Below the pieces are notes generated by a model, which was not told the DNA's origin, searched no databases, and worked only from the letters and a program-made list of their open reading frames with translations. A stretch of DNA of 62,038 bases from a virus: positions 1-62,038 of the IMG/VR virus record IMGVR_UViG_3300020207_000023; one strand, given 5' to 3'. Shown here piece by piece: positions 2,671 to 40,547 of this stretch. Position numbers and translations under genes: made by a program. Position 1 is the first letter of the stretch, and every line of letters begins with the position of its first letter.

Positions 2671-3702
2671 CTAAACCGTATATGTGCCAGTGCTTGTATA
2701 TTTAAGAATTTTGTAACTTCCTACCGTTGTAATGGTAGGGGAGCCTGTAGTTGTTCCTGTGTATTTAGATGTAGGAATTTTCAATATGATAACTCCATCG
2801 CCACCATCGCCACCACTATAGCTAGTAGGAGCGTTTGGCATAGAGCCACCACCGCCACCGCCACCAAGGCCATCTGTACCCGCATTGCCCGCGCCGCCAC
2901 TAGCCGCGCCAGCATTACCGCCACCGCCAGAACCACCTGTTCCGACTGTGCCGCCGTTATATGTTCCACCACCACCACCGCCAGCGTATGTTACAGCAGA
3001 GCCTGTGATTGAAGATGACTGTCCTGCGCCGCCATTACCGCCCGCAGAAGTTGTTGCGTTAGCGCCCACTGCTCCAGCGCCCCCGCCCCCACCGCCGGGA
3101 TAGTTGGGAGAAGCGTAGTTAGACGTACCGCCGTCATTACCCTGACCAGCCGTACCAGAACCAGCGGGAGTTCTTCCTCTAGCACTACCACCACCAGAGC
3201 CACCGTCTTGTGCCTCATTCCCATCAGAGCCAGTTGTGGCACCACCAGCACCACCACCGCCACCAGTGGCAGTAACGGTAACAACCCCACTTCCAGTAAT
3301 AGTGCTGTCGTTGCCGTTAGTTCCCCCGCCAGTGTTTCCTGTGCCGCCAGCACCACCAGTCCCCACAGTAAGGGTTATGACTTTACCAGCTGTTATAGCG
3401 ACAGTGTCCGTTACAAGGCCACCAGCACCGCCACCACCAGCACCGCCGCCTGACCCAGAACCTGAAGCTCCACCGCCACCGCCACCAGCGACCACTAGAT
3501 ATTCGATAGAAACGTCATTTGTCTGGTCGCCCACGGCAACCCAATCCGTTCCATCATATACCTCGACAACGCCCAAGGTAGTATTGTATCTCATCATTCC
3601 CGTAACTGGGGAAGACGGTCTTTGGGCGGTCGTCCCAACAGAAAGATTTAGTGAGCCTGTACCTAAATTAAGCTGGTTTGGGCCAACCTTACCTAGCGCC
3701 AT
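2671..3702 (-). CDS. Glycine-rich tail protein
   Basis: 343 residues, of which residues 75-300 are extremely Gly-rich (many runs of GGGGG and GAGG). They are bracketed by an N-terminal segment ending IEYLVVAGGGG and a C-terminal DGVIILKIPTSKY, the typical frame of phage glycine-rich tail domains thought to form polyglycine-II-like bundles. The N-terminus (LNLGTGSLNLSVGTTAQRP) is a common fibre start. GC-rich low complexity creates long spurious reading frames on the opposite strand. An adhesin role is inferred. Confidence 0.75.
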   Translation of the reverse strand: MALGKVGPNQLNLGTGSLNLSVGTTAQRPSSPVTGMMRYNTTLGVVEVYDGTDWVAVGDQTNDVSIEYLVVAGGGGGGASGSGSGGGAGGGGAGGLVTDTVAITAGKVITLTVGTGGAGGTGNTGGGTNGNDSTITGSGVVTVTATGGGGGAGGATTGSDGNEAQDGGSGGGSARGRTPAGSGTAGQGNDGGTSNYASPNYPGGGGGGAGAVGANATTSAGGNGGAGQSSSITGSAVTYAGGGGGGTYNGGTVGTGGSGGGGNAGAASGGAGNAGTDGLGGGGGGGSMPNAPTSYSGGDGGDGVIILKIPTSKYTGTTTGSPTITTVGSYKILKYTSTGTYTV

Positions 3703-4034: not shown

Positions 4035-4622
4035 TTACCCCAATGCTATTGCAAACGCCAAAGCGTTTGGATCTTGTTCCGTAAACCCCTGTATATTATC
4101 ACTGGTATCATTGAAAATAATCTGCTCAGCTGGCAAGGTGCAAAATATTGTGCGTGTGCCAGCCGACCAATTAACAGGGGCTTCTGCAAAAGTAAGCACC
4201 GCATTATCTGCTAATGTGACGCTAGTGTCCAAAACAATAGCTGTTTGGCTAGTTACAGTAGCGACATTAACAATGCCAGTTATGCCTGTGCCTGTAACTC
4301 TGTGGCCGACCTGTATCGTGCCACTATTACCATCTACAGCTACATTTGTAGAAGAAGTAACCGCCCCATTTACAGAGGCGGTTGCTGTGCTGGTGTTGGT
4401 ACTTTGTATCGTTTTGGTTCGGGCTAGTGTAGTACCAGACAAAGTGTATGTCCCTAACCCTATTTCAAAATCAGCACCATCTGAGCAAGCGTAATAAGTA
4501 GTATTACCATCCCCGATCTCAGAGAACGCTTCAAAGCCACCCAACGCCCCTGCCAGAGTATAAGCCCCTGTGCCAGTGGTTGTCGTAGTTTCCTTTATGC
4601 GGTCTCTGAGAACTAAGGCCAT
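4035..4622 (-). CDS. Virion structural protein carrying one 62-residue cassette
   Basis: 195 residues. The flanks (MALVLRDRIKETTTTTGTG... and VNWSAGTRTIFCTLPAEQ) resemble a short phage tail or base protein. Residues 84-145 are a copy of a Thr/Val-rich cassette (AVTSSTNVAVDGNSGTI, then VATVTSQTAIVLDT) found twice more in the next gene. Removing it would join STATAS to AEAPVNWS, so it reads as an insertion. The gene overlaps 4622..5668 by one base. Confidence 0.7.
   Translation of the reverse strand: MALVLRDRIKETTTTTGTGAYTLAGALGGFEAFSEIGDGNTTYYACSDGADFEIGLGTYTLSGTTLARTKTIQSTNTSTATASVNGAVTSSTNVAVDGNSGTIQVGHRVTGTGITGIVNVATVTSQTAIVLDTSVTLADNAVLTFAEAPVNWSAGTRTIFCTLPAEQIIFNDTSDNIQGFTEQDPNALAFAIALG
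4188..4373 (-). repeat. 62-codon protein cassette, copy A
   Basis: 186 bp encoding residues 84-145 of the 4035..4622 product. It has the same length as copies B and C and the same framework: GAVTSST, DGNSGTI, VGxxVTGTGI, VATVTSQTA, VLDT, LADN, LTF. The copies differ at many third positions and several residues, so they are not recent duplicates. Confidence 0.85.
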
Positions 4623-5668
4623 TACTTCAACTCAATAGATAGATTACCAGCATTGATGCGGAAGATATCACCTACCGCAAGAGTTTTACTTGCATCTAAC
4701 GCACCTACAAACAAGATGTTACCATCAAATGTTAGAGCCGCGTTATCTGCTAGAGTTACTGCCGTATCTAGGACGATAGCAGTCTGGCTAGTCACGGTAG
4801 CTACCTTTACCTCACCAGTAATGCCAGTGCCTCTCACTCGCTGTCCTACGACGATTGTGCCAGCATTGTTATCTACTGTCACATTTGTAGAAGATGTAAC
4901 TGCACCATCTACAAGTGCAGATGCACGGTTTTTGTCAGCAATAAAGGCATGGGATACAGTGTAAGTAGCAATACCGCTAGAAGCCGCAAACTCAATATTG
5001 TTATCGTTTACGACCTGTTGCTGGTCTGAAATAACCGTATCTCCATTGCTATGCGTGGTTGCTGTAGTGCTTGATGTTCCGCGAGTACAGCCTGTTAGCG
5101 TATTCGTGCCATCAAAAGTCAGCGCAGTATCATCTGCAATAGTGATTGCAGTATCCAATACCAAAGCTGTCTGGCTAGTTACAGTTGCCACTTTTACTGT
5201 GCCACTGATACCTGTGCCTGTCACAATCATACCGACCGTAATAGTCCCGCTATTACCATCTACAGCAAGGCTAGTAGAAGAAGTAACTGCACCATTAGCA
5301 TCTGCGGTAGCCGTGCCATCCTTACCTGTGTAGGTAATCAACTCATCATTAACTTGGATTGTACCAGATGACGGAAAAGCTTCTGCATCAGCAAGGTAAA
5401 ATTCAGTTTGTGAGTTAGTATGGTTTCCAGCCAACGTGGTTACAGATTGCTTCCAACCAGAAGCACTAACCTGTTGCCGATCATAATTGGCATCTTCAGT
5501 TGTGATATTCACCTCAGAAAGCGAACCACTTTCTGCGTGTGTCACACCTGTTGCCAAACCAACATAAATACTATTCCCTAGAGTAGCAAACGACAGGGAA
5601 TCATTTTTGAACAAATAATCTAGAATATGTCGTTCTAGATAGGTTGTTGCCGCATTAGATGTAGCCAT
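4622..5668 (-). CDS. Virion structural protein with two inserted cassettes
   Basis: 348 residues. The N-terminus (TYLERHILDYLFKND) and the module SGTIQVNDELITYTG...LTGCTRGTSSTTATTH recur in other virion proteins here; compare the 53100..55202 product (YTGISGNDFTGCIRGTIS). In this protein a 62-residue cassette (residues 124-185) splits that module. A second copy (253-314) interrupts the segment between FIADKNRA and ILFVGALDASKTLAVGD. Likely tail or neck structural protein; function unknown. Confidence 0.7.
   Translation of the reverse strand: MATSNAATTYLERHILDYLFKNDSLSFATLGNSIYVGLATGVTHAESGSLSEVNITTEDANYDRQQVSASGWKQSVTTLAGNHTNSQTEFYLADAEAFPSSGTIQVNDELITYTGKDGTATADANGAVTSSTSLAVDGNSGTITVGMIVTGTGISGTVKVATVTSQTALVLDTAITIADDTALTFDGTNTLTGCTRGTSSTTATTHSNGDTVISDQQQVVNDNNIEFAASSGIATYTVSHAFIADKNRASALVDGAVTSSTNVTVDNNAGTIVVGQRVRGTGITGEVKVATVTSQTAIVLDTAVTLADNAALTFDGNILFVGALDASKTLAVGDIFRINAGNLSIELK
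4727..4912 (-). repeat. 62-codon protein cassette, copy C
   Basis: 186 bp encoding residues 253-314 of the 4622..5668 product (DGAVTSSTNVTVDNNAGTI ... LADNAALTF). It is inserted just before the C-terminal LFVGALDASKTL segment and has the same length and framework as copies A and B. Confidence 0.85.
5114..5299 (-). repeat. 62-codon protein cassette, copy B
   Basis: 186 bp encoding residues 124-185 of the 4622..5668 product (NGAVTSSTSLAVDGNSGTI ... IADDTALTF). It interrupts the YTG...LTGCTRGT module that is uninterrupted in the 53100..55202 product. Confidence 0.85.
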
Positions 5669-5679
5669 GTTTTTTACTC

Positions 5680-6537
5680 CTAACTTCTTGGCTTATCTGG
5701 TAAACCTCGACGATATGCGTCGCTATTTTCCCGAGCCTCTGCTAAATCTTTAAGGCGAGTCATTTCCTGTATAAAGCGTTGTTCATACAAGGCCATCATA
5801 TCTTGTTCGCCTTTCATGTAAGTATATGCTTCAACGAGAGAACCGTAAAGAAGAGCGTTCGGGGCATTTTCGCCGAGCCATGATGTAGCCGCATTAGAAA
5901 CGACAGCTACCACTACGCCAGTTGCACCACTCGTACCACCTGTAACCGTTTCCCCGACGGAAAATGCCCCAGATAGTGTTGTAGGCGTGTATTCAACTTG
6001 CGCCGCACCGACAACAGCCAGCGTTGCCGAAGCACCGCTAATATTGCCTGTGATAGATTCCCCGACCACAAATGTCCCTGTCAAATTATTTAGAGTAACT
6101 ACAACAGGGATGTTTGTTATGCTTTCGGGGCGATAATAGTAATGAAGCTCTACATTGTAAGCTATATCTGGTGTAGGCGATAAAATAAAATTATCTACAT
6201 CAAATATGCCGTAAAAACGCGGAGTTGCATTACCTGTCACCGTATTGTTGAACTCTTGCAAATAGTTTACATCTTTCAACAATAGGAACTCTTTATAATT
6301 TGGCGTCGTAATCTGCAAAGAAAACGGCGACATATAATCAGTTGGCACAGACAAATAAGGGTTGCCTATAGTAAGCTGGGAAGTAGCATTTTTGCGAAAC
6401 AGCTCAAGATCAACCAGCGTAAAAATACGGTCTTCTGCCCCGCGTACAAACAAAGGCATATTATTTACAAAAGAAGTTTCGTAATTTTCAGTAAAGTCCT
6501 GAACCGCTTGGCTGAGTTGGCTATACGAAAAAGTCAT
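5680..6537 (-). CDS. Head-tail adaptor or tail adaptor protein
   Basis: 285 residues. The start MTFSYSQLSQAVQDFTEN and the helical C-terminus (EAYTYMKGEQDMMALYEQRFIQEM) fit the phage adaptor proteins that sit next to portal or tail-tube proteins in marine podoviruses. The middle (about 148-215) carries two tandem beta repeats of the form LxGxFxVGExxTGxxSGA. Placed immediately downstream of two other neck genes. The adaptor role is inferred from context and resemblance. Confidence 0.6.
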   Translation of the reverse strand: MTFSYSQLSQAVQDFTENYETSFVNNMPLFVRGAEDRIFTLVDLELFRKNATSQLTIGNPYLSVPTDYMSPFSLQITTPNYKEFLLLKDVNYLQEFNNTVTGNATPRFYGIFDVDNFILSPTPDIAYNVELHYYYRPESITNIPVVVTLNNLTGTFVVGESITGNISGASATLAVVGAAQVEYTPTTLSGAFSVGETVTGGTSGATGVVVAVVSNAATSWLGENAPNALLYGSLVEAYTYMKGEQDMMALYEQRFIQEMTRLKDLAEARENSDAYRRGLPDKPRS

Positions 6538-17674: not shown

Positions 17675-17804
17675 TCGCTTTCCCCCCTTGAATTACGCGG
17701 AAAATGGGCTTGGGGGCAAGGCTCTGCTGAGCTAACTGCACAGCCTTTTTCAAATCATCTAATTTATCCGTAATAGATTTGTTTTCTTGGTGGACCTTCA
17801 ACAT
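17667..17804 (-). CDS. Possible 45-residue protein between terminase and portal
   Basis: A 45-codon frame from ATG 17804 to TAG 17667-17669, overlapping the 3' end of the terminase gene and the first codons of the portal gene. The product has a helical, charged N-terminal part (TDKLDDLKKAVQLAQQSLAP) and a short basic tail. It fills the otherwise empty 89 bp gap. No good ribosome-binding site is seen, so expression would rely on coupling to the terminase gene. Confidence 0.4.
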   Translation of the reverse strand: MLKVHQENKSITDKLDDLKKAVQLAQQSLAPKPIFRVIQGGKANG

Positions 17805-19236
17805 AATCGTCATAATCCTCTGGGTGCTGTATAAACCCGCCTTCGCGAAACCGTCGGAGAGCCTGTGTTACCGTGTCAACGAAATCATCATTTTCGCCAG
17901 CCGGAAACGCCGCACACTCCTCTATGACTTCTTCCGCCCATCGTGTATCTGGAGCCCATACTAACCCAGATTCAAGGAGAGGCGCAATGGAGTTTACTCT
18001 TGTGTATTTATCATTCCCTCTGGACGGGCTATAATTCTGCACCGGAATACCCATACTGCGTAACTCTTGCGTCAACGGCATACCACTCGCCTTGGCCTCA
18101 ATCAACACACATTCCGGATCCCAATAATTATATTCCTCCATTGCAATACGCCGCAACTCAGGGAAATCCCATCGGCCACGCCGCGCATCACACAGAATAA
18201 TGTTTGGTGGTTCTCCCTCCTTAGGATAAAACACACCCCATGTGGTTATAGCACTAAAATCAGCATTCGTCTGTTTACTAAACGCCGTATCATAAGACTG
18301 CATCACATAACTCAGCGGCGGGATATCTTCCTTTTCCCACTTCTGCCACCAATCACGCTTCAATATAGCACTCGTCTCAGAAGTAGGATTCTGTTGCCAC
18401 TGCGCTTCCCACTTGCCAACAGACAAAGAAGCCTTAACCTTTAACAACTCATCCTTTTTCCAAAACTCCGGCCACAAAACCTTATCATCATCCAATAACG
18501 CCGGAAACTCAACCACCTCCCACTGGTCTGCCAATACATCGCGAGCCTGTTGCTTCAACAACTTACCCGTCAAATCTATCTCGGACCATCGCGTCATCAC
18601 AATTACAATCGCTCCTCCAGGTTGCAAACGCTGGCGTGGACCAGAAGTATACCACTCATACGCATTCTCCAATGCCGCAGGGGATAACGCATCCTGCTCC
18701 GAGTGCGGATCATCAATAATCATCAAATCCGCACCACGACCAGTAATCGCTCCTCCAACACCAGCCGCAAAATATTCGCCACCAGCATGGGTCTCCCATC
18801 TACCCGCCGCACTACTATCCTGCCGCAACTTTACATCCGGAAAGACCAGAGAGTATTCGTTACTGTTCATAAGGTTACGCACCTTACGTCCAAACCTCAC
18901 CGCCAATTCACCTGTATGCGTCGCCTGAATAATCTTTAACTTAGGGTTCAATCCCATCAACCAACTCGGCAACAAATAACTGGCAAACTCCGACTTCGTA
19001 TGTCGCGGTGGCATATTCACTATCAACCGCTTAATACTGCCATCCGCCAATCCATTAAACTTCTGCGCCATCACCTTATGGTGATTCCCCTCAATAAACT
19101 CAGGCCATACCGTTTTGGTATAAGCCATAAAATCCTTCCTCGCGCGATCACTCGAAGCATACTGTCCACTCTTTTCAAGCAAACGAGCATACTGCTTCAA
19201 CACATCTTCAGGAATAGTCAATGGAGCGTCTGGCAT
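17764..19236 (-). CDS. terL: Terminase large subunit
   Basis: 490 residues. The ATPase domain has a Walker A-like PPRHTKS (76-82), a Walker B LMIIDDPHSE (171-180) and a coupling segment VIVMTRWSEID. The C-terminal nuclease domain begins near YDTAFSKQTNADFSA with metal-binding Asp, followed by LCDARRGRW. It pumps DNA into the capsid through the portal encoded downstream and cuts the concatemer. Its start overlaps the small gene 19218..19448 by 19 bp. Confidence 0.9.
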   Translation of the reverse strand: MPDAPLTIPEDVLKQYARLLEKSGQYASSDRARKDFMAYTKTVWPEFIEGNHHKVMAQKFNGLADGSIKRLIVNMPPRHTKSEFASYLLPSWLMGLNPKLKIIQATHTGELAVRFGRKVRNLMNSNEYSLVFPDVKLRQDSSAAGRWETHAGGEYFAAGVGGAITGRGADLMIIDDPHSEQDALSPAALENAYEWYTSGPRQRLQPGGAIVIVMTRWSEIDLTGKLLKQQARDVLADQWEVVEFPALLDDDKVLWPEFWKKDELLKVKASLSVGKWEAQWQQNPTSETSAILKRDWWQKWEKEDIPPLSYVMQSYDTAFSKQTNADFSAITTWGVFYPKEGEPPNIILCDARRGRWDFPELRRIAMEEYNYWDPECVLIEAKASGMPLTQELRSMGIPVQNYSPSRGNDKYTRVNSIAPLLESGLVWAPDTRWAEEVIEECAAFPAGENDDFVDTVTQALRRFREGGFIQHPEDYDDYVEGPPRKQIYYG

Positions 19237-19448: not shown

Positions 19449-19605
19449 ATTTCAAAAAAGGGGGGTGGGGGTACGCGAATAATTATCTCGGTACTAACGA
19501 TGTCGAAAGAACCGTGTATACGCCTACGCATATACACCACTCGTCTGTCAAAGGGGGGTTGGGGGTGTGGCATTTTTGCCACATAGCCTAAAACGCCGCT
19601 GGGGA
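19449..19605. other. Noncoding stretch with hairpins and G tracts
   Basis: It holds two related G tracts, G6-T-G5 at 19460-19471 and G6-TT-G5 at 19553-19565. It also has a 7 bp inverted repeat GTGTATA...TATACAC (19514-19520 with 19531-19537) and a 6 bp hairpin GTGGCA-TTTT-TGCCAC (19567-19582). No gene is seen. Up to 19549 GA and TC occur at normal density; only one GA (19604-19605) follows before the GA/TC-free island. This is a candidate packaging or termination region next to the terminase genes. Confidence 0.55.
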
Positions 19606-19623
19606 CCCATAGGCGGCGGTTGT

Positions 19624-19654
19624 GCGGCTGGCGGTAGGTAACACCGCCAGCCGC
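19624..19654. repeat. Perfect 12 bp hairpin inside the island
   Basis: GCGGCTGGCGGT (19624-19635) pairs with ACCGCCAGCCGC (19643-19654) across a 7 nt loop. It lies just past the stop of 19661..20188 on the minus strand. There is no T tract on either side, so it is not a standard intrinsic terminator. It could end or protect the transcript, or be a DNA-level recognition structure. Confidence 0.8.
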
Positions 19655-19660
19655 TAGGGG

Positions 19661-20188
19661 TTAGCCCATAAGCACTAGGTTGCCATAGGCTGTGCCGTAT
19701 GTGTTAGCGGTTTGTGCGCTGTAGTTAAAGCCGCCATTAAGCACAGCCGCCACAGCATTTTGGTTGGTTGCCGTGCCAGCCGCCGCATTAACATTGGCAA
19801 ACACACTAGCCGCCCAATGTTGGTGCGCCGCCTGTATTGCCGCCAATGGCACAGGCTTGCCAATGCTGGTTGGCAATTTTGTGCTAATGGCTGGCACGTT
19901 GTAAACGGTAACACCGTTGGCGGTTGTGGTTGGCACACCGTTAACGCACGCCCATAAAATAAGGCCGCGTGCGCTAATGTTGCCAGCCTTGTTTGGTTGC
20001 ATGGTGCGCCACATTGCGCCGCCGCCAAACAAAGTGCCGTTGGCAAGTGCGGCTGGCGTTAATTGCAAGCCCACATTGCCTAAACCGTTGGCCTTAATAA
20101 AGGCCGCCATTGCCGCAACGCTAACCGCGTTTTTAGCACCGTTTGCACCGTTAAAAGCCTGTGCCGCTTGTGTTGTTTTGTTAACCAT
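19661..20188 (-). CDS. Ala/Asn/Gly-rich protein without any Asp or Glu
   Basis: 175 residues from an ATG with AAGGGG 6 nt upstream. There are no Asp or Glu codons at all, Ser is only AGC/AGT, and no Arg CGA/AGA or Gly GGA, all forced by the absence of GA and TC in this DNA. The order is a basic Ala-rich start (TTQAAQAFNGANGAKNAVSV), a central part with MWRTMQPNKAGNISARGLIL, and an aromatic/Asn C-terminus (NGGFNYSAQTANTYGTAYGN). The product resembles no family I know. Because TGA is excluded in every frame, ORF length alone is weak evidence; the ribosome-binding site and sensible composition argue for a real gene. Confidence 0.6.
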   Translation of the reverse strand: MVNKTTQAAQAFNGANGAKNAVSVAAMAAFIKANGLGNVGLQLTPAALANGTLFGGGAMWRTMQPNKAGNISARGLILWACVNGVPTTTANGVTVYNVPAISTKLPTSIGKPVPLAAIQAAHQHWAASVFANVNAAAGTATNQNAVAAVLNGGFNYSAQTANTYGTAYGNLVLMG

Positions 20189-20277
20189 TGTTAACCCCTT
20201 TTTAGTTAATGTGCGGTAGCACCATTGCCCCGCCCCTATTTTATGCCACAGGTTTAATATGTTTGTAAACCCCTTTT

Positions 20278-20340
20278 TTACAGTATTGCCAAAATAATTA
20301 TTAGCAACGCCGCCACACTACCAAAAACCAGCGCAATCAT
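20278..20340 (-). CDS. 20-residue hydrophobic peptide
   Basis: ATG at 20340 overlaps the stop of the 57-residue membrane protein gene as ATGA, and the frame ends in TAA at 20278. The product is a single hydrophobic segment, MIALVFGSVAALLIIILAIL, with no charged residue. Translational coupling and membrane insertion are likely if it is expressed. Most of it lies inside the GA/TC-free island; the only TC is the one forced by the overlapping TGA stop. Similar short hydrophobic frames occur at 23448..23510 and 22731..22781. Confidence 0.55.
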   Translation of the reverse strand: MIALVFGSVAALLIIILAIL

Positions 20341-20510
20341 TTGTGCCGCCATGCGCCAATATAGCCGACCATAAAACTGGACAGGCCAATAATAAATAGC
20401 AATGCGCTAATGTAATGGTGGAGGGTTGGGATATTAAATGTGTCCACACTGGTAAACATTAAAAAGATACCAGCCAACATTAAATAACCATAGGTAACGA
20501 TAATAAGCAT
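20337..20510 (-). CDS. 57-residue two-helix membrane protein
   Basis: Begins MLIIVTYGYLMLAGIFLMFT, then a short polar loop (SVDTFNIPTLHHY) and a second transmembrane segment (ISALLFIIGLSSFMVGYIG), ending in basic AWRHK. GGGAG lies 6 nt before the ATG. Two helices with a short loop and a positive tail fit small phage membrane proteins such as holin-like or superinfection-exclusion proteins; no homology is claimed. GA and TC are rare in this gene compared with the rest of the genome. Confidence 0.65.
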   Translation of the reverse strand: MLIIVTYGYLMLAGIFLMFTSVDTFNIPTLHHYISALLFIIGLSSFMVGYIGAWRHK

Positions 20511-20776
20511 AGCAAACTCCCTTGTTTGTGGTTAGGGGTTTACATTGCCAGCCGCCGCCGCGTCTTGCCAGTGCAAAATTGTCACTGTGATAACATGGGA
20601 AGTCGCGTGATTTCACAAGAGTTCATGACGGTCTTTCGTATTCATATGAGTGTATACGAAAGAGAGATCGTCCAATATCCAAAGGGGACTTATCCATCTA
20701 TCTATCTTATATGCTCATGTATACCGATAAGAGATTCATCTTCGTCACTCTTTGTCAATCAATCAATCCATCAAAT
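20511..20776. other. Intergenic leader region with 9 bp hairpin
   Basis: No gene is supported in these 266 bp. CTTTCGTAT (20633-20641) and ATACGAAAG (20654-20662) form a perfect 9 bp inverted repeat around a 12 nt loop that itself contains the palindrome TCATATGA, a possible operator or RNA hairpin. Short runs of TCAA and ATCT repeats lie near 20697-20775. The promoter for the minus-strand gene starting at 20510 should lie here, since a terminator ends the upstream transcript at 20777. Confidence 0.5.
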
Positions 20777-20822: not shown

Positions 20823-21272
20823 TTATGCCGGAATGACATAAAGCTCCACGAAGTTTTTGCCCCATGTCGCTTTCGCGCTGGCTGACTGTCCGCCGTTAAG
20901 AGCGTCAAGCAAAGCATGGAAGCGACGCGCCTTAATTGAGCGGTGAGCCATGTCGACATCCTGCAGGGTGACCGTTTCCTTACCGGAGTTGATCAACTGC
21001 CAGACTACCTTGCCACGCAGGACAGACTTAGGTGAACCGTCTGCGTCATACAAGGTCCGCTTGCTTTCAAAGGGGAATGGCTGTTCCGCCTTTGGGTCAA
21101 CGTCGGCTACAATGCGGACGCCTACATTATTAGGATTCCCGCCAGCGTGTTCCTGGACAAACTTAAAAATGTCCTCGGCCGTAACGCCTTCGCGCTTGCG
21201 CTCATCAGGCAGTTCATTGATGCCTGCAAAAGTGATTTCCTGAGCGACTTTTTTAGTGACTGCTTTAGCCAT
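20823..21272 (-). CDS. Unknown soluble protein, 149 residues
   Basis: The ATG at 21272 is chosen because AGAAAGGAA precedes it; a longer frame to 21311 lacks a good site. The product is hydrophilic with AEDIFKFVQEHAGGNPNNVG and, near the end, RFHALLDALNGGQSASAKAT. It is followed by a strong terminator and preceded by the repeated leader motif, so it probably forms its own short transcript and may be abundant. Not recognised. Confidence 0.65.
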   Translation of the reverse strand: MAKAVTKKVAQEITFAGINELPDERKREGVTAEDIFKFVQEHAGGNPNNVGVRIVADVDPKAEQPFPFESKRTLYDADGSPKSVLRGKVVWQLINSGKETVTLQDVDMAHRSIKARRFHALLDALNGGQSASAKATWGKNFVELYVIPA

Positions 21273-21315: not shown

Positions 21316-21356
21316 GGCTACCCTTATAGAGTAGCAAATTGACCTTCCTATGTAAA
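21316..21356 (-). promoter_or_regulatory. Leader/promoter block upstream of 20823..21272
   Basis: The plus-strand block GGCTACCCTTATA (21316-21328) matches the 3' part of the 25 bp repeat found before two other genes (23379, 23850). Read on the minus strand it gives TATAAGGGTAGCC 44 bp before the ATG. TTTACA lies at 21356-21351 on the minus strand. The conserved TATAAG core is the likely -10; no convincing consensus -35 at 17 bp is seen. Confidence 0.5.
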
Positions 21357-21475: not shown

Positions 21476-21901
21476 TCACTCTTCGTCGCTCTTCATCAAT
21501 CTATCGAGGACCTCTGCCCATCCATCTTTGTCCCTCGGCCACTCCATCCTGTAATCGTATGTTGGATCATTATCAATCAATCTCTTTGCAAGGTAGCGTC
21601 CATCCATAAACAATAGGCTCTGGGACGAAGGATGATGAACCAAGTTCCAAACGCATCCACCAACATCAGTTCTTGAGGTCTGCCATGCTATTTGATGAGG
21701 ACGCCACTTAGGGAACTTCTTGTCGGACTTTGTCGTAAGAACCTTTAACTCTACCCAGAAGTCCTTGCCATTCGCGCAACCGTTGACGTCAGGGACGCCT
21801 GGACTCGCCCATGACTCCATCCTTACCCAATGGACGTTTAGGTGGCGTGTTCCGTCCCGTAGGGCTTTCCATAATTTAGACTCAGGTTTCGGTGTTGGCA
21901 C
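21476..21901 (-). CDS. PD-(D/E)XK nuclease, Holliday-junction-resolvase-like
   Basis: 141 residues. The core motif is complete: an early Glu/Lys helix (PESKLWKALRD), SPGVPDVNG with the catalytic Asp near 39, then FWVELK with the E-x-K pair near 51-53, and later KWRPHQIAWQ. This is the arrangement of small phage VRR-NUC or resolvase-like nucleases. It could trim recombination junctions before packaging, which fits its overlap with the small terminase gene (20 bp). Confidence 0.75.
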   Translation of the reverse strand: MPTPKPESKLWKALRDGTRHLNVHWVRMESWASPGVPDVNGCANGKDFWVELKVLTTKSDKKFPKWRPHQIAWQTSRTDVGGCVWNLVHHPSSQSLLFMDGRYLAKRLIDNDPTYDYRMEWPRDKDGWAEVLDRLMKSDEE

Positions 21902-22442
21902 TTGGATGAACTTCTATTTCTTGGAAGTTCGCATCTATGGTGGGCTGGGTCGCTTCTACAAGTTGGGGGAACTCTTGCTGTATGCGCCTGATCTCTGCCA
22001 TAACCTCATTGCGATCCATCTGGTCTATCTTGCCCATGAGGATTTCCTTGCGGTCAATGTAAAGTCCTGCGGCTTGGCCTCGTGACTTTTCAGCAGTGAC
22101 AGCGGCGGCGTAGTTCCCATTCTGCAACGCTTGGTCTCTTATCTCTGCCAGCTTCTTTACATGGCTTTCAAAGGTGACTTCAAACTTGTGTTGCAGTTCA
22201 TTCTTGATATCGCGTATGCGTTCCAAAACTTGGGGGTAGTCCCGTCCGTTCAACATACGGCTTGCGATGGCGTGTGCATTGGACTCTGCGTAGCCAGCGC
22301 GAAGTGCGGCCTCAGTTTGCGTAACTTCCTCTGTTGCGTAAATCATTGCAAACTTTTCTTGCTTGGGTGTCAGCCCTACTTCCACCCGAGGGTTAGCAAC
22401 AACGTCCAGAGTATTCTTGTGTGTAACTTTCGCTTTCGGCAT
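21882..22442 (-). CDS. terS: Terminase small subunit
   Basis: 186 residues. The N-terminal part has GLTPKQEKFAMIYATEEV then TQTEAALRAGYAESNAHAIA, the helix-turn-helix signature of the Terminase_2 small-subunit family. Central helices (VKKLAEIRDQALQNGNYAAA) would form the oligomer. It recognises packaging start sites and feeds the large subunit encoded 2.6 kb downstream. The separation of terS and terL by the nuclease and the GA/TC-free island is notable. Confidence 0.8.
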   Translation of the reverse strand: MPKAKVTHKNTLDVVANPRVEVGLTPKQEKFAMIYATEEVTQTEAALRAGYAESNAHAIASRMLNGRDYPQVLERIRDIKNELQHKFEVTFESHVKKLAEIRDQALQNGNYAAAVTAEKSRGQAAGLYIDRKEILMGKIDQMDRNEVMAEIRRIQQEFPQLVEATQPTIDANFQEIEVHPSANTET

Positions 22443-28275: not shown

Positions 28276-28803
28276 TCACACACTAAGGTTGTGGTGGACT
28301 AGCACTTCGTTTACAGGTGCGAAGTCAGGTAAGTCTGAGAACTTTTTGTAAAGATAATTGATGCCAGTGTGCATTATCACTTTCATCTGCTCGCTTCCTG
28401 CAGAATGGCGATGGGAATAGAGCACGAGTTCAAGCATATCTGCCATCTTAAGTCTGCTTTTTTCTTCTGGCGTTAGGACAAAAGTCAATCCAAGGTCGTC
28501 CATCACTTTCTTTTCAGCCTTTTCAAAGGCTTGCAGGACTTCGGGGAACGACCATTTCGCCGTTGCTGGGATATCACCCAACACCATTTCAGGCACATCG
28601 TGATACAACGCCGCCATGATTAACTGTTTGCTACTATCAGGCCATAACTGGTCAATCAATATACTGACTGCGTATGAATGTGCTCCCACTGTTTGCCTCT
28701 CTGCTTGCATTGGAACAGTATGGTAGCGCAGTAGGAACTGTGCATCCCACGCTGTCATCAATGTTTTAATGTTGGTTGTTGTCTTGCATTTTCGTCCCGC
28801 CAT
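28276..28803 (-). CDS. HD-domain nucleotidase, YfbR-like
   Basis: 175 residues. The HD residues are in place: H42 (VGAHSYAV), H68-D69 and E72 (LYHDVPEMVLGD), D77, and D122 (MADMLELVL). YfbR-type enzymes remove the 5' phosphate of deoxynucleoside monophosphates. Next to a polymerase and base-modification genes it probably tunes the dNTP pool, perhaps lowering dTMP in favour of a modified precursor; that is inference. Starts 38 bp inside the polymerase gene with AGAGGA upstream. Confidence 0.75.
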   Translation of the reverse strand: MAGRKCKTTTNIKTLMTAWDAQFLLRYHTVPMQAERQTVGAHSYAVSILIDQLWPDSSKQLIMAALYHDVPEMVLGDIPATAKWSFPEVLQAFEKAEKKVMDDLGLTFVLTPEEKSRLKMADMLELVLYSHRHSAGSEQMKVIMHTGINYLYKKFSDLPDFAPVNEVLVHHNLSV

Positions 28804-30830: not shown

Positions 30831-31245
30831 CTTTGTCACCGAATCGCATCCTTAATTCAGCCTCAACAAGAAACAAATAACGCCGTAGGTCGCGTATATC
30901 ATCTAAAACGCCTTCCTCGCGTCTGTCTTCCTCTGCTGTTTGGAACACATCATAATTCCAGTCAGCCACTTGCTTTTCAAGCCTGTCCCATTTGCGAGCC
31001 AGCATCATAAAAGCACCAACGCCTCCGCGCTGTTTCCAACTGTTGCCATAGGATTGCTCAGATATATGCAACCCTTCAACATCCTCCATAGCCAGACCCA
31101 GCACCTTATTGATAATGGCACTGTAATCATCGGCATCTATTTCACCGTTCCTAACCAATTTAAGATACTCCTCTTCCTCTAACTCACGCATACGCCGTGT
31201 CATATAAGCCTCGTGACTTTCGTGTTTTACAAAGTTTCCATCCAT
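30799..31245 (-). CDS. DUF1599/Nmad1-like protein
   Basis: 148 residues from ATG 31245 (GGAGAA 8 nt upstream; longer starts lack a site). The core is SYGNSWKQRGGVGAFMMLAR, KWDRLEKQV, then DDIRDLRRYLFLVEAELR, the pattern I recall for DUF1599, also called nucleotide modification associated domain 1. Such helical proteins recur next to phage base-modification genes. It overlaps the thymidylate-synthase-like gene by 19 bp. Confidence 0.6.
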   Translation of the reverse strand: MDGNFVKHESHEAYMTRRMRELEEEEYLKLVRNGEIDADDYSAIINKVLGLAMEDVEGLHISEQSYGNSWKQRGGVGAFMMLARKWDRLEKQVADWNYDVFQTAEEDRREEGVLDDIRDLRRYLFLVEAELRMRFGDKDDRQLELEVG

Positions 31246-32243
31246 TTGTCTTTTCTCCGTTCTAGCCATTCGTAACACGCCAAATGCCAATCATCTGGCT
31301 TTATGTCTTTAGAATGTTCCATGGCTTGGAAAATTTCTTTTGCTTTCCATGCCACCCACATTCTGTGCATAGGCTGTGCCACTTCGCTAAAAACAGAGTT
31401 AACATATGCTCTAGGTTTCTCGGGGTCTTCCATAAACCACTCAAGCTCTTCATCAAAGGTAAGTATGTCGTCAACCAATGGAGAAGGTTTAATCATGCGT
31501 GTAGCATATGAATCATAGTCAGGGGTCATTCCATCAAGCCCCTCCAACACTTCCACATAGGCGTGGAGGTTGTTGCTGAACTGTGTATAGATCCCCACCT
31601 GTGCGCCAATCCGTGCCGCAATGTATTCCTGCAGAATGGACATATGGACAGCGTTAGCTCCCAGCGCACCCCAGATCATATCATTACTGCGGTTGCATAC
31701 CGTCATGTCCAGCTTATTATCGCGAACGCTGAAATATATATGCGTATTACAGGGGTGATCTTTGCATTCATTATCCTTGCGTAAATCACCTTCAGGATCC
31801 CACATAGCTAAAACAGTTCGTCTATCGTTTTCATAGGTCATAAGTCTATGAACAGCTATGTCTAATTGGTCTTTATAGAAATAGTTACGCCATCTATAAC
31901 CATATGCACCTTGGAGGGTCTTACCATTATCACTATAAGTACCCATCCGTTTATTATAACGCTGGATCCACTCAAGGTCTTCACGACCCGCTAACATCCA
32001 GAGGCTTTCCATAAAATGGAATACAGGGTTAGCGTCGCGTTGCGGATAGAACAATACCCGCTCGCAGGGGTTATTGTAAGTAATCGCACAAGGCTCACGG
32101 AACTCAAGTGCTTTACCGTTTCGGGTGTCTACTTCAACACCGCTAGTTTCAAGTGCTTGCTTCACCAGCCATAACGCATCACTGACATTAACAGCGGTGA
32201 ATGTGTGCATACCCCTCATTGGGGCTTTGCCAAATAGTGCCAT
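31227..32243 (-). CDS. Thymidylate-synthase-family dUMP hydroxymethylase candidate
   Basis: 338 residues. Family features: FMESLWMLAGR (77-87), QGAYGYRWR (111-119), catalytic C165 in DHPCNTHIYF, the nucleotide loop NRSNDMIWGALGANAVH (184-200), and NNLHAYVEVL. True ThyA enzymes have PCH and LGLPFNI at these places; here PCN and WGALGANAV match the divergent phage branch that includes dUMP hydroxymethylases. It likely makes 5-hydroxymethyl-dUMP, the entry step for hypermodified thymine. Ordinary dTMP synthesis cannot be excluded. Confidence 0.75.
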   Translation of the reverse strand: MALFGKAPMRGMHTFTAVNVSDALWLVKQALETSGVEVDTRNGKALEFREPCAITYNNPCERVLFYPQRDANPVFHFMESLWMLAGREDLEWIQRYNKRMGTYSDNGKTLQGAYGYRWRNYFYKDQLDIAVHRLMTYENDRRTVLAMWDPEGDLRKDNECKDHPCNTHIYFSVRDNKLDMTVCNRSNDMIWGALGANAVHMSILQEYIAARIGAQVGIYTQFSNNLHAYVEVLEGLDGMTPDYDSYATRMIKPSPLVDDILTFDEELEWFMEDPEKPRAYVNSVFSEVAQPMHRMWVAWKAKEIFQAMEHSKDIKPDDWHLACYEWLERRKDKWMETL

Positions 32244-32344: not shown

Positions 32345-33346
32345 TTAAATAAAGTCAAAATGCTTCTTGACACGCTTAGTGTATGTCCCTCCATTTAATG
32401 CTTCTTTAATTGCAGTTTCCGTTTCCTCTGTAGGCTCGGGTAACGTCTTGCGTCCCATGCGGTCAGGTAACAATCCATTACGAAGAGTGGTGTTGTCACA
32501 ACCGTTACAAGGACCGAAATCGCGTTGCCCATGATACAGTTTTGTTCTCGCCGCATGGAAAGCCTCCCCCTGCCAAATATCATCAATATGTGTGTCCATT
32601 ATATTGCCGCACTTATACCATCCTACCCAATCATTACAGCAGACTGCGACATTGCCATCCCATCGTATTGACATTTCGCGGAAAGGTTTAGCACAGCGTT
32701 TGCCATCTTGGTCATGGTTCAATGGAAAAGCATTTCCAGCATGGTTGCTAACTTGGGCATGAGTTCCACTTGTAGCCAATGTGAGATCCATGCCAACAAC
32801 GATATCATGCTCTGTAACTTTTCTTCTACGGTGGGGGTTTGCGGCGCGGTCGGCGGGGTATTCAAAAACGGGATGTGGACCATTGTAACGCTCCTTGATT
32901 TTATCTACGATTTTAATACGGTCGTAGTTATCAAGGAATAGAACATTTAGCCCTGCATCCATAAGTTTGTTGACCGTTTCCTCTGTGTCTTTCAACAACC
33001 CACCACCATTGCTAGTCATCATAAGCGGTGTTCTGGGTAACTCTTTACGGAACAGACCCACCATTTCAATAAAGAAAGGGTGCATAGTAGGCTCGCCGTG
33101 CATAGCAAACTCAATGCGTGGATTCCACCCTGCCCTTTTAATTTCCTGACAAATTCGGGTAGCCGTTTGAATATGCAGATTTTTGTAAGGGGCAGATGCT
33201 TTACCATGCAGATTACTCGGACCATCAGCCTCGTTTTCACGGATAGACTGTATGCCGCAAAATGAGCAAGCAAGGTTGCACCCTTCCACAAACTCTACCT
33301 GAATAGAGTTTGGTGGGTCTTGATAAAAGTTAGATTGCTCCACCAT
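32345..33346 (-). CDS. Radical SAM / SPASM-like enzyme
   Basis: 333 residues from ATG 33346, chosen for GGAGAAAGG 9 nt upstream. The [4Fe-4S] motif is C23-x3-C27-x2-C30 (EGCNLACSFCG), followed by an HGEPT motif (83-87). The C-terminal part has C218, C236-C237 (GNVAVCCND), C246, C280 and C283, a SPASM-like second cluster site. It is neither QueE nor a known aminomutase by motif. In this operon it probably alters the thymine substituent by radical chemistry; the substrate is unknown. Confidence 0.75.
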   Translation of the reverse strand: MVEQSNFYQDPPNSIQVEFVEGCNLACSFCGIQSIRENEADGPSNLHGKASAPYKNLHIQTATRICQEIKRAGWNPRIEFAMHGEPTMHPFFIEMVGLFRKELPRTPLMMTSNGGGLLKDTEETVNKLMDAGLNVLFLDNYDRIKIVDKIKERYNGPHPVFEYPADRAANPHRRRKVTEHDIVVGMDLTLATSGTHAQVSNHAGNAFPLNHDQDGKRCAKPFREMSIRWDGNVAVCCNDWVGWYKCGNIMDTHIDDIWQGEAFHAARTKLYHGQRDFGPCNGCDNTTLRNGLLPDRMGRKTLPEPTEETETAIKEALNGGTYTKRVKKHFDFI

Positions 33347-34115
33347 CTTTAGCGGCCTTTCTCCATTGAACACGGACATCCCACCGCGTTTTCATACCTT
33401 CCCAACCTGTTTTAGTTTCCTTTTGTAATGCTTTCACATACAACGGAAAGGCTTGTTCCAAAGCGCGGCTGGCGCGTTCTTGCAGTTCAGCATTGCGATA
33501 TGTGCTACAGCCTCCAGCCGCACCAGAAGCACCACGCTGATCCCATGTCCAATCTACAATAACCGCATTGCCGTGTCCCTTTTGGAATAGGCTGAGGGTT
33601 ACATAGTAGTCCTCCATTAACTCCATAGCATCATAGCGTATGCCTAATTGTTGGAGGATATGGGGGCGTATGGCATGGACAGCGTTTTGCCGCATCCCAT
33701 ACTTTACCCGATCTGGGTAATGTTTGTCATTCATCTGGCGTGGGCTGAGGCCAACATGGGTGAAGTTATTTAACAGCCACTCCATGCGCTCCCACAGTTC
33801 GTGCATCTCACCCTGCTCAGTTTTTCTTAGGTTAGGTGCGTCATCATGTGCGCGGCGACCAAATATAAGATCGTCATCCAAAATAATAATTTTATCATAC
33901 TCCTGCTCCACTGCGTGATCTACAATAAATTGCCGGACATTGTTTATGCCCTTGATATCACCACGGTTCAGGCAGTAACGACCATTGTTAATATGTGCTT
34001 GCACTTCTTCTTGTGGGCAAACCAGAACCGCACTTTCTCTTGCTTCCGGACCAATACTTTCCCAAGTAGTTTGCTTGTTGATCCTACCCCTTGTAGGAAT
34101 AAAAATAGGTATCAT
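33330..34115 (-). CDS. TET-associated-type glycosyltransferase (TAGT-like)
   Basis: 261 residues. Starts MIPIFIPTRGRINKQTTWES with a GT-A nucleotide-binding start, then the metal-binding IIILDDDLIFGRR (D80-D82) and AMELMEDYYVTLSLFQKG, the pattern of phage TAGT enzymes that glycosylate 5-hydroxymethylated bases. No TET/JBP dioxygenase gene is present; the hydroxymethyl group would come from the hydroxymethylase. ATGA overlap with the zinc-ribbon gene and overlap with the radical SAM gene show one operon. Confidence 0.75.
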   Translation of the reverse strand: MIPIFIPTRGRINKQTTWESIGPEARESAVLVCPQEEVQAHINNGRYCLNRGDIKGINNVRQFIVDHAVEQEYDKIIILDDDLIFGRRAHDDAPNLRKTEQGEMHELWERMEWLLNNFTHVGLSPRQMNDKHYPDRVKYGMRQNAVHAIRPHILQQLGIRYDAMELMEDYYVTLSLFQKGHGNAVIVDWTWDQRGASGAAGGCSTYRNAELQERASRALEQAFPLYVKALQKETKTGWEGMKTRWDVRVQWRKAAKDGGAI

Positions 34116-37515: not shown

Positions 37516-39033
37516 TCACGCAGGAATTTGATAACCACGGCTGAACATGGGATGCACCAAATGTAAATGTTGTAGAGCGCGAGTAAGACCCACATAAAAC
37601 ACGCGAGCTTCATCAAAATGTTCGTTTTCAAACTTACGCCACATAGAATAGGAACGACGCATAGTGTCAGTGAGAACCATAACATTATCTGCTTGAGCTC
37701 CCTTTGCTGAGTGAATCGTTGAGATTCGGATGCGAGGCTCTTGTGTTAAGGATTCACCTTTGCGTAGACAGGCTTTAATGTAACGCTTATCTTTATCCGA
37801 TATTTTGCCCAACCCTTCATCCCAAGGGAGGCTGTGTAGTAATCCGTGGAAGTCCAGCAGATCTTGTAATCCATAACGCTGGTCTGGCTGTCCTTTACTA
37901 AAGGTTTTGTGTCCATACTCAACCTGTGTGCCTAACAACATCTGGCTATAAACAGTTCGCACCTGTTCAGCCGTTAGCATACCACCATCGCGTAGGTTTT
38001 CCCAAAGCCTAACTGATTCAAGAACTTTACCATCAATTGATTTACTGCCATTGTAGATATATAAATGTCCACGGCGGCGCACTTCTTCCTCAATCTGCTT
38101 TGCACCTCGTGTAGTGCGGCTGAGTAACAGCCAGTCACCTTCGGACATATTAACTTCTTCGGAGTGACGATGCCAATGGACAAACCCATCCTCATCCCGT
38201 GGGTTGAATTGTTTGGGTCTGCGATCAACGACGCGCTGAATTACTTTTTGGCTAAGTGCATGATGCAGGGCGGGTATCCTGTAACTTTGGTTCAGCACAG
38301 TGACACTGCCTTCAAGTCCTATGAAGTAGTCTACATCTGCACCCGCATAACGGAATATGGCTTGGTCGTCATCGCCAGCTACAAACATCTCTTTGCAGTT
38401 GGCTTGTAATAGATGTACCATTTTCCACTGCAATGGTGACAGGTCTTGCGCCTCATCAATGAACACCACCTCCAGTTTCGGTGCTAACTGACGGTAACAA
38501 AACTGCTCTAGCATATCTGTGTAGTCGAACAGTTGGTATCTATCCTTCCATGCCTTTAACCCCCTGTCTACGTAATCAACCCTAGCCCAGTCGGTTTTAA
38601 GCGGCACTGTAGAGGCATTGTAAACGCCACGCAGAGGCTGTTGCTGTATGCGAGCTATGTTAATCAGCTCAAGGAATTTATCGCCGTATCCAAAATCTTT
38701 ATACGGACCTTGGTCGGTGAGTCCTGAATTAAAGAAACCACCGATTTTTAACCAATCACCAATTTCAGTAAACTTATCCGATGTGAGAATTTGGTTATGG
38801 TTAATGCCCATCTGCATAAAGGCAAGGCTGTGAAGGGTGCGGAAGAAAGGTAAGTCGCGCCTGTGCAGTTTAAACTTTTCACAAGCACGGTCTATAGCTT
38901 CACTAGCGGCACGGCGAGTAAAGCCAAAGTAACCTATACGATCTGGTGCGACACCTTTGCTAAGATACTCTTCGACCTTGTTTAGGAGGTAGGTTGTTTT
39001 CCCTGTTCCTGGAGGTCCGAGTATAATATTCAT
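37516..39033 (-). CDS. UvrD/Rep-type SF1 helicase
   Basis: 505 residues. Walker A ILGPPGTGKTTYL at the N-terminus, motif Ia-like FGFTRRAASEAI, Walker B VVFIDEAQDLSP, motif III VAGDDDQAIFRYAGA, motif V ISTIHSAKGAQADNVMVLTD and motif VI YVGLTRALQHLHL. All helicase motifs are intact. It likely unwinds DNA at the phage fork or in recombination. Its start overlaps the primase stop by one base. Confidence 0.9.
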   Translation of the reverse strand: MNIILGPPGTGKTTYLLNKVEEYLSKGVAPDRIGYFGFTRRAASEAIDRACEKFKLHRRDLPFFRTLHSLAFMQMGINHNQILTSDKFTEIGDWLKIGGFFNSGLTDQGPYKDFGYGDKFLELINIARIQQQPLRGVYNASTVPLKTDWARVDYVDRGLKAWKDRYQLFDYTDMLEQFCYRQLAPKLEVVFIDEAQDLSPLQWKMVHLLQANCKEMFVAGDDDQAIFRYAGADVDYFIGLEGSVTVLNQSYRIPALHHALSQKVIQRVVDRRPKQFNPRDEDGFVHWHRHSEEVNMSEGDWLLLSRTTRGAKQIEEEVRRRGHLYIYNGSKSIDGKVLESVRLWENLRDGGMLTAEQVRTVYSQMLLGTQVEYGHKTFSKGQPDQRYGLQDLLDFHGLLHSLPWDEGLGKISDKDKRYIKACLRKGESLTQEPRIRISTIHSAKGAQADNVMVLTDTMRRSYSMWRKFENEHFDEARVFYVGLTRALQHLHLVHPMFSRGYQIPA

Positions 39034-40547
39034 TAGATGATGTCTTCGTGTGTAGGCAACTCTGGCAGTGTCAATGGTTCGTCATTAGATGCAAAAAACT
39101 CTTGTGGTAATGACCACACATGAATCCCTTTGCCCTTTACACGCCAAAACATTTTTTCTGCTTCCATTCCCTGTAGCCGTAAGGTTATCTTGTTTGAAGT
39201 GTAGTGGTTGAAGTCGTTAACGGTCAGATGCTTTTTAATATCCTTGACTTGGAAGAATACTTTGCCCTCATCCCATACGGCTACGCCCTGCAATATGTCT
39301 TCACGGTCTGTACCTTTTGCTCTATCGGTGCAGAACTGCGACAACAAGTCTTCAAACTCGCCTTTAATTGTAGCATCAGGTGGCACTTCGACAATGGTTA
39401 AATTATCAAGCAGTAATTGTATCCGTGTTTGCCATGCTCTTTGGCTTACTGCGATAGGCAATTTATTGATTTGCGCTACACAATCTTTTTGGAATCGTGT
39501 CTGGCTAATCAACCCGTCTGTGCTTAATTCAACACGCTGACCATCTACATCTAGTATCCAAATAGGTGGATCGCCATCAATCTTTGTAAGGCTAGACATC
39601 TGGTTTTGCACACCAGCCGGACCAACGCCAAACTTGCGAGTAACGCATATATCCTTATTACAAAAAGGTTTGATAGGTTGATCGTCACATTTGTAATAAT
39701 AATCCTTGCGTTGTAACTGTTTGATAACCGCGCCAACCTCAGTATGACTAAGCGGCGGGTGCAAATACTCGACATTGTAACGCTGTATCAAGGCTTCCCA
39801 ATTATCAGGGTCAAACATTCGGGCATACACACCCAAGTTAAAGAGAGCATTGTTTCGTGAGCCTTCGCCAAAGCCCTGTTGACAAAGCTCATTCAAACAT
39901 GGTGGACCATCTTTTAACTTAGGTTCTGGCTCGGATATACGGTAAGCCGTAAAGTCTTCAGGCTTTATCAAGTAGCGTGTGGCTTTAGTCACAAACTCTT
40001 CAGGTGTCATAAGTTCACCCTTAAAGTCGTATACCGACCGCGTACTGAGGTCGCCCTTAAAGTAAGGCATATTCAAACCATTACCTGTATCACCACGGTC
40101 TACAAGAATGGTTGATTGTTTAGGAAATATCTCACCTTCGGCGTGGCCTAATGAAGCCGCCAGCTCGGTAAGTTTGGATTGCACAAACTCAGCTTTGAGT
40201 GCATCCGTGAAGAAGAAATAAATATGTGCGCCGCCAGATTTACTACGGCCTACCCATCCAACGATCTTAGCATCTTTGAGTTTTTTGACGAGTGCCTTAT
40301 GGTCTACATCGTATGTATCAATATCAATCGCACCCCACTTACAAAGGTTATCATCCCGGATAGGGATAATGCCTAGCCCTTGCTTACCATCTAGGTGCTG
40401 TTGCCAAAGTTCTTCAGTTGGTGGCTGTTTTATGATTTTGTAAACGCCAAGCCGCTTGCCATCACTGCGCTGTTCGTCAGGATTAAACACGCCATGCGCT
40501 CGTTTGTTACCATCAAATAGCTTTAGAAATTTCTCTGCTAAAGACAT
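39033..40547 (-). CDS. Archaeo-eukaryotic-type (AEP) primase
   Basis: 504 residues. The primase core shows WGAIDIDTYD with D75 and D77, then RSKSGGAHIYFFF with H108 in the S-G-x-H motif, and LVDRGDTGNGLNMPYF. A Cys-rich segment (YYKCDDQPIKPFCNKDICV, about 290-310) suggests a zinc site. No helicase domain is fused; the C-terminal 200 residues are of unknown fold. It primes replication with the adjacent SF1 helicase, polymerase and SSB candidate. Confidence 0.75.
   Translation of the reverse strand: MSLAEKFLKLFDGNKRAHGVFNPDEQRSDGKRLGVYKIIKQPPTEELWQQHLDGKQGLGIIPIRDDNLCKWGAIDIDTYDVDHKALVKKLKDAKIVGWVGRSKSGGAHIYFFFTDALKAEFVQSKLTELAASLGHAEGEIFPKQSTILVDRGDTGNGLNMPYFKGDLSTRSVYDFKGELMTPEEFVTKATRYLIKPEDFTAYRISEPEPKLKDGPPCLNELCQQGFGEGSRNNALFNLGVYARMFDPDNWEALIQRYNVEYLHPPLSHTEVGAVIKQLQRKDYYYKCDDQPIKPFCNKDICVTRKFGVGPAGVQNQMSSLTKIDGDPPIWILDVDGQRVELSTDGLISQTRFQKDCVAQINKLPIAVSQRAWQTRIQLLLDNLTIVEVPPDATIKGEFEDLLSQFCTDRAKGTDREDILQGVAVWDEGKVFFQVKDIKKHLTVNDFNHYTSNKITLRLQGMEAEKMFWRVKGKGIHVWSLPQEFFASNDEPLTLPELPTHEDII

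Follow-up and report, generated by a model that had tools for sequence, protein, structure and literature searches.

Organization of the locus

The window, by which we mean the whole stretch of DNA analysed (62,038 nucleotides of an uncultured virus), carries between its two terminase genes a short series of genes and signals that all lie on the minus strand. In the direction of reading, the terminase small subunit gene (21882..22442, assigned by homology) is followed by a predicted promoter with a GGGGTTTACA element that contains GA and TC (21321..21356), and then by a gene for a 148-aa protein with normal GA/TC and normal Asp/Glu content, connected to its paralogue by profile comparison (20823..21269). 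Next comes a 57-aa membrane-type micro-ORF, weakly depleted by dinucleotide counts (20337..20510), and directly downstream of it the GA/TC-free island that is the subject of this report (19606..20336), to which no strand is assigned. Inside the island lie a sigma70-like promoter predicted by sequence match, TTTACA-N17/18-CATAAAAT, which is itself free of GA and TC (20238..20269), the island gene encoding a 175-aa protein without Asp or Glu (19661..20188), and a terminator-like hairpin with a 13-bp stem (19624..19654; -30.7 kcal/mol, z -4.3). The island stops approximately 19 bp past this hairpin. Downstream follows the terminase large subunit gene terL (17764..19236), whose relatedness served as the anchor for comparison; its product is 63% identical to that of HTVC027P and 58% to that of HTVC023P, a kinship with the HTVC023P-type pelagiphages. 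Just outside the downstream edge of the island, G-rich runs of the ggggggtggggg type occur at 19458-19470 and 19553-19567.

A tract without GA and TC

A sequence-only reading of the window had claimed 731 bp without GA or TC where about 90 sites would be expected, with AG, CT and all other dinucleotides present. On recount all of this held: positions 19606-20336 contain 0 GA and 0 TC, bounded by the GA at 19604 and the TC at 20337, while the base composition of the island itself predicts 40.0 GA and 51.5 TC (about 91 in total). The site-to-site gap is 733, and the runner-up in the 62 kb window is 65. Gaps of similar length arising by chance, which that reading had named as a possible refutation, were not found: in 20,000 shuffles of the island the sum of GA and TC averaged 91.4 with a minimum of 64, and among 300 Markov-simulated genomes no GA/TC-free run was longer than 145, so that a chance origin is ruled out. 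All remaining dinucleotides occur, AG (31) and CT (23) being low and TG, CA, AA and TT enriched, and the G+C content is 0.53 vs 0.46 for the genome. The weaker depletion claimed beyond the right edge was confirmed for 20337-20513 (GA 6 vs 13.6 expected, TC 2 vs 7.7). The claim that the island covers part of the micro-ORF failed; the 57-aa micro-ORF lies just outside, its stop codon falling at the right edge of the island.

For the island gene, 27.3 GA and 11.2 TC would be expected from synonymous codon usage against the 0 and 0 observed. This null, together with the noncoding extent of the exclusion, rules out a cause at the protein level alone, and the earlier claim that the constraint acts on DNA is supported, since promoter and terminator DNA are included and the exclusion goes beyond synonymous codon choice. 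The gene is under strong purifying selection, with dN/dS between relatives of 0.04-0.22 (the pair L053/L147 was left out as misaligned). An AF2 model gives a confident predicted fold (pLDDT 85, pTM 0.84) without a match in PDB or BFVD; searches of Pfam, PHROGs, NCBIfam and PDB sequences returned no convincing match to suggest a function, and no cellular homologue was found in the bacterial genome contigs searched.

Conservation among relatives

Searching the viral collection with the 175-aa protein recovered 18 loci, and a profile search 60; most of the genes found by profile have 0 GA and 0 TC despite identity to the window protein down to 35%, and the G+C content of island genes across relatives ranges over 0.36-0.60. 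The same gap in diverged relatives, which the sequence-only reading had proposed to look for, is thus present at the same locus: in the TerL-anchored loci the tract lies directly upstream of terL and is 0.5-1.2 kb long (up to 1182 bp). Among 187 distinct TerL proteins, 50 belong to loci with full islands, 9 with GA-only and 6 with partial exclusion, and 122 with none. Nearly all islands fall in one TerL clade with support 1.0, the exception being L206/L215, a separate TerL lineage with a partial island. Three members of the island clade were scored as lacking one (L084, L175 and L069), the last as an artefact of a truncated start. The island is unique within its genome in the three of three whole contigs checked; many contigs of the relatives are partial. 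The island is a confirmed observation, conserved among relatives.

The 53 distinct islands share a common anatomy of a gene followed by a hairpin, with the island usually ending 20-50 bp beyond the latter and, in many of them, a TTTACA element about 80 bp 5' of the ATG. Each island is a single transcription unit, in which one gene usually stands behind a TTTACA-type promoter, predicted from sequence, and ahead of a hairpin near the island end. Some lineages have a tract that begins merely 8-69 bp before the ATG, which leaves one GA/TC between promoter and gene, and in L035 and L039 the counterpart of the 57-aa micro-ORF lies mostly within the island. Islands of about 1.1-1.2 kb in L096, L100 and L101, some with more than one ORF, possibly hold extra copies of the purged gene. 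Short tandem repeats of the GTCGCTCCG type occur directly upstream of the partial island (L213/L215 at about 2900-3300, L206 at 642-920), and in L206 the gene copy is closely followed downstream by repeats encoding DDQWE.

A purged copy of a neighbouring gene

Iterated profiles of the island proteins revealed a second copy of the gene, the ordinary paralogue described above, approximately 1 kb upstream of the island gene and normal in both GA/TC and acidic residues. The two copies are 52-61% identical in L062, L064, L068, L169 and L178 and 31-49% in others, the range quoted for several genomes being 44-61%; in the clade of the window they are connected by profile comparison only (hhalign E 2.2e-6). 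The AF2 model of the ordinary paralogue (pLDDT 87) has a predicted element order similar to that of the island protein and no fold match in PDB, and the GGGGTTTACA element is common to the upstream regions of both paralogues in the window. The island gene is a duplicate of the upstream ordinary gene. Upstream of terL, the island-free lineages outside the clade gave no hit with the paralogue profile. Nor did it detect a member in twelve whole contigs and five named genomes that lack PF18723, in four M6-like phages, in ViI, phiW-14, YuA and Simon, or in bacterial genome contigs. The search that covered the twelve contigs, the five genomes and the M6-like phages overlooked the very divergent G028 and G058 copies, and these negatives are accordingly weaker for remote members. 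In one genome (G034, lineage L064) both paralogues (4348-4770 and 5367-5735) have normal GA/TC and the modification cassette is present without an island; this genome has lost its island while keeping the cassette and both paralogues.

Strand asymmetry and a narrowed motif

That a two-base recognition unit is excluded by selection, as the sequence-only reading had held, is supported by conservation over wide divergence and by one lineage with a narrowed motif on both strands, and its symmetric picture has to be qualified by a strand-asymmetric component in several lineages. In L124, L125, L132 and L136 coding-strand TC is at its synonymous expectation, and coding-strand GA, that is template TC, occurs 0-2 times vs about 17 expected; L108, L112 and L114 partly show the same pattern. 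These lineages regained coding-strand TC while template-strand TC stayed excluded, which fits a block to template reading. The template-strand rule is not universal: in L206/L215 and L062/L067/L068 the sites that remain are mostly coding GA (GA > TC). Upstream of terL in L067, L068 and L070, CTC and GTC are tolerated and ATC and TTC hardly so, on both strands (Fisher p 5e-8, 1e-3 and 8e-9). Such a WTC-only exclusion is the pattern expected if the specificity of the enzyme had changed, and it speaks for an effect on DNA and not on RNA. Ordinary genes can be affected as well: in the terL coding region of L062, L068, L074 and L090, coding-strand TC is strongly depleted, to about 0.1-0.5 of expectation.

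Association with a thymidine-modification cassette

The window encodes a predicted modification cassette on its minus strand. It comprises a 5-hmdU DNA kinase helical-domain protein as candidate TpC-recognising subunit (PF18723, 34435..35340, E 1.7e-51), a TET-associated-type glycosyltransferase or TAGT (PF20691; phrog_842, domain match, 33330..34115), a radical SAM/SPASM enzyme (domain match, 32345..33379) and a thymidylate-synthase (TS) family enzyme (phrog_5131, 31227..32243, E 1.8e-105), whose activity as dUMP hydroxymethylase is inferred; a YfbR-like HD 5'-deoxynucleotidase is recognised by domain match at 28276..28803. PF18723 occurs in 19/22 island-clade contigs of at least 30 kb and in 13/13 above 43 kb; the three contigs without it are incomplete, and one of these has the TS-like gene, which was found in 21/36 records. 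The 42-kb contig of L215, from the separate TerL lineage with a partial island, also has PF18723. Neither PF18723 nor an island was found in HTVC027P, HTVC023P, 023Pt_psg01 and DSL-LC04, which are near-complete, or in 18 further contigs of 20-63 kb. Both gene copies are confined to HTVC023P-type phages with the thymidine-hypermodification cassette, and the association with the cassette is established, resting on only about two independent origins. It does not extend to all 5-hmdU kinase phages: no comparable island of any dinucleotide class was found in M6, YuA, PaMx11, RaNi, Sonora, Simon (minus its last 924 bp), ViI and phiW-14, and these eight rule out the island as a general trait of such phages.

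TS and PF18723 form the core common to the cassettes, and the partner varies between TAGT (PF20691 in the window and 13 other records), GT1/GT4-type proteins matched above or below cut-off between PF18723 and TS, and unrecognised 350-430-aa proteins; Pfam recognised no glycosyltransferase in the cassettes of L406, L408 and L411. Radical SAM and TAGT are each missing from several island genomes and were rejected as key partner. Neither the window nor any of nine other cassette-bearing contigs yielded the P-loop kinase phrog_800, which was found in M6, Sonora and PaMx11. Because this kinase, which stands beside PF18723 in M6, is missing here, we infer that PF18723 is the DNA-recognising subunit and that its catalytic partner is exchanged. 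A 7-deazaguanine modification at GA is ruled out, as a search for TGT/DpdA-type enzymes (PF01702) that was positive for every control genome found none in nine contigs of the island clade.

A transcription unit that may escape modification

In our view the island constitutes a transcription unit that is free of hypermodification and can always be read, a reading that we favour by a narrow margin (probability approximately 0.55) and in which the chemistry, the TpC specificity, the transcription block and the protein function are all inferred. The TS-like enzyme would lead to replacement of phage T by 5-hydroxymethyluracil (5hmU), and a PF18723-guided enzyme set, probably including a glycosyltransferase, would place a bulky group on 5hmU at TpC. 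This group, above all on the template strand, would hinder host RNA polymerase (RNAP). One gene, from its promoter to just beyond its terminator, would be purged of TpC on both strands, carry no bulky base and stay readable in any modification state, and the ordinary copy about 1 kb upstream would lie in modifiable DNA. At start-up, when the incoming DNA is fully modified, the purged copy may be the first to be made and may help the remaining genes, the ordinary copy among them, to be expressed; we offer this use of the island only tentatively. A bolder reading, on which the balance of evidence tips slightly to the negative side, would be that of two copies one was recoded to be invisible to the phage's own modifying enzyme, and that a single unmodified unit sets going a genome that is otherwise hard to read, as if the phage had locked its own genome and left one key outside.

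Published work bears on several of these steps. Resistant sites in M6, ViI and phiW-14 DNA contain TG or TC and were ascribed to 5-hmdU kinase (PMC6449724). Bulky major-groove groups usually block bacterial RNAP, while 5hmU is tolerated or stimulatory, and 5hmU-DNA kinase turns transcription off (PMC11550810). The same paper notes that glucosyl-hmC still permitted transcription, so a sugar alone need not block RNAP.

The favoured reading is supported by the cassette association, the L206/L215 lineage, the literature on TG/TC sites, on bulky groups that block RNAP and on base J, the promoter-to-hairpin extent, the template-TC lineages, the WTC lineage and the paralogue pair. Against it, TG is not avoided in the island though M6-type sites are TG or TC, and a TC-only specificity must therefore be assumed for the island clade; M6, YuA, ViI, phiW-14 and PaMx11 are island-free. 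Further objections are the genome without its island, the template-only rule that is not universal, the GA/TC between promoter and gene in some lineages, the unrecognised glycosyltransferase of L406, L408 and L411, the transcribable glucosyl-hmC, the few independent origins, and a predicted modified base that is unmeasured. If the reading is true, this would be to our knowledge the first instance in which selection has freed an entire transcription unit from the base modification of its own genome, and no description of a TC-purged transcription unit appeared in the literature searched. Phage hypermodification would then cost transcription, the island would show how that cost is met, and such tracts would give sequence-only read-outs of modification specificity: mostly TC, WTC in one lineage, and strand dependence in others.

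Alternative explanations

The closest rival, which we regard as possible and rank second, is a safe harbour for a counter-defence gene, where a host modification-dependent nuclease or base-excision glycosylase attacks the modified T in TpC and the purged unit survives to make an inhibitor. It shares the dependence on modification and would suit the protection of the entire transcription unit and a fast-evolving protein family with no cellular homologue found. However, a nuclease that cuts at other places would still destroy the genome, relaxation on one strand only suits template reading better than double-strand cleavage, and the phage retains an ordinary copy of the gene close by. If the island were a packaging or replication site, with the terminase or an origin protein requiring the DNA between terS and terL to be unmodified, this would agree with its location and with TC-free DNA on both strands. 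Such a site appears unlikely: the extent matches a transcription unit rather than a fixed site, the gene is duplicated and shows strong purifying selection, and no island occurs in cassette-free relatives whose terminases are related.

Avoidance at the RNA level, in which mRNA would shun GA and UC as cleavage sites of a ribonuclease, draws support from several lineages in which coding-strand GA is the step most persistently excluded. We also doubt this explanation, as the exclusion extends to DNA upstream of the promoter and beyond the terminator, and the WTC lineage has the same narrowed motif on both strands, which an RNase would not require. Least likely of all is a mutational or compositional by-product of deamination, biased repair or foreign DNA. 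The island G+C of 0.53 is indeed unlike the 0.46 of the genome, but GA/TC is at or near zero in relatives that differ at more than half of residues and whose genes span G+C 0.36-0.60, dN/dS is near 0.1, and the ordinary copy 1 kb away is unaffected. Decay by a deaminase or other mutational process is ruled out by conservation across this G+C range and by purifying selection; the sequence-only reading had rightly rejected it.

Comparison with known systems

The favoured reading of a modification-free unit has partial counterparts elsewhere. Restriction-site avoidance is known in early or leading-region genes such as the T7 0.3 region and plasmid ardA, where likewise a first-needed gene is cleared of a recognition unit; the sites there are several bases long and belong to host enzymes, whereas here every two-base step is removed from a whole unit and the modification genes are the phage's own. 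Base J, which is glucosylated hmU, plays a part in terminating Pol II transcription in trypanosomes (PMC7055916) and resembles the proposed model as a bulky glycosylated hmU acting on transcription, but it is eukaryotic and tied to termination sites, and the modification of the window phage is only predicted. Phages with 7-deazaguanine at a GA motif, such as CAjan, share a two-base GA context and differ by the TGT/DpdA-type enzyme absent from the nine island-clade contigs. For the same phage group as the window, a published account of HTVC023P-type clades V, VIII and IX describes TS, aG/PT-PPlase1, deoxynucleotidase and glucosyltransferase genes and infers from them that thymidine is hypermodified (PMC9599517); neither the island nor the purged paralogue nor an exclusion of TC comes up in the relevant sections. 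The 5-hmdU hypermodification system of the M6/ViI kind is similar in its TS-like enzyme, in its PF18723 helical protein near PolA and in the published TG/TC context. It differs in that the window and the nine other cassette-bearing contigs lack the P-loop kinase, most having a glycosyltransferase instead, and M6, YuA, ViI and phiW-14 have no island.

Some cassettes carry further genes. A mannose-6-phosphate isomerase/cupin-type gene lies within that of L406 (G058, 2329-2784) and may hint at the sugar used, and an FkbM-type methyltransferase gene lies within that of L411 (G049, 2814-3554). The window also encodes a primase with a TOTE-type AEP domain at 39033-40547.
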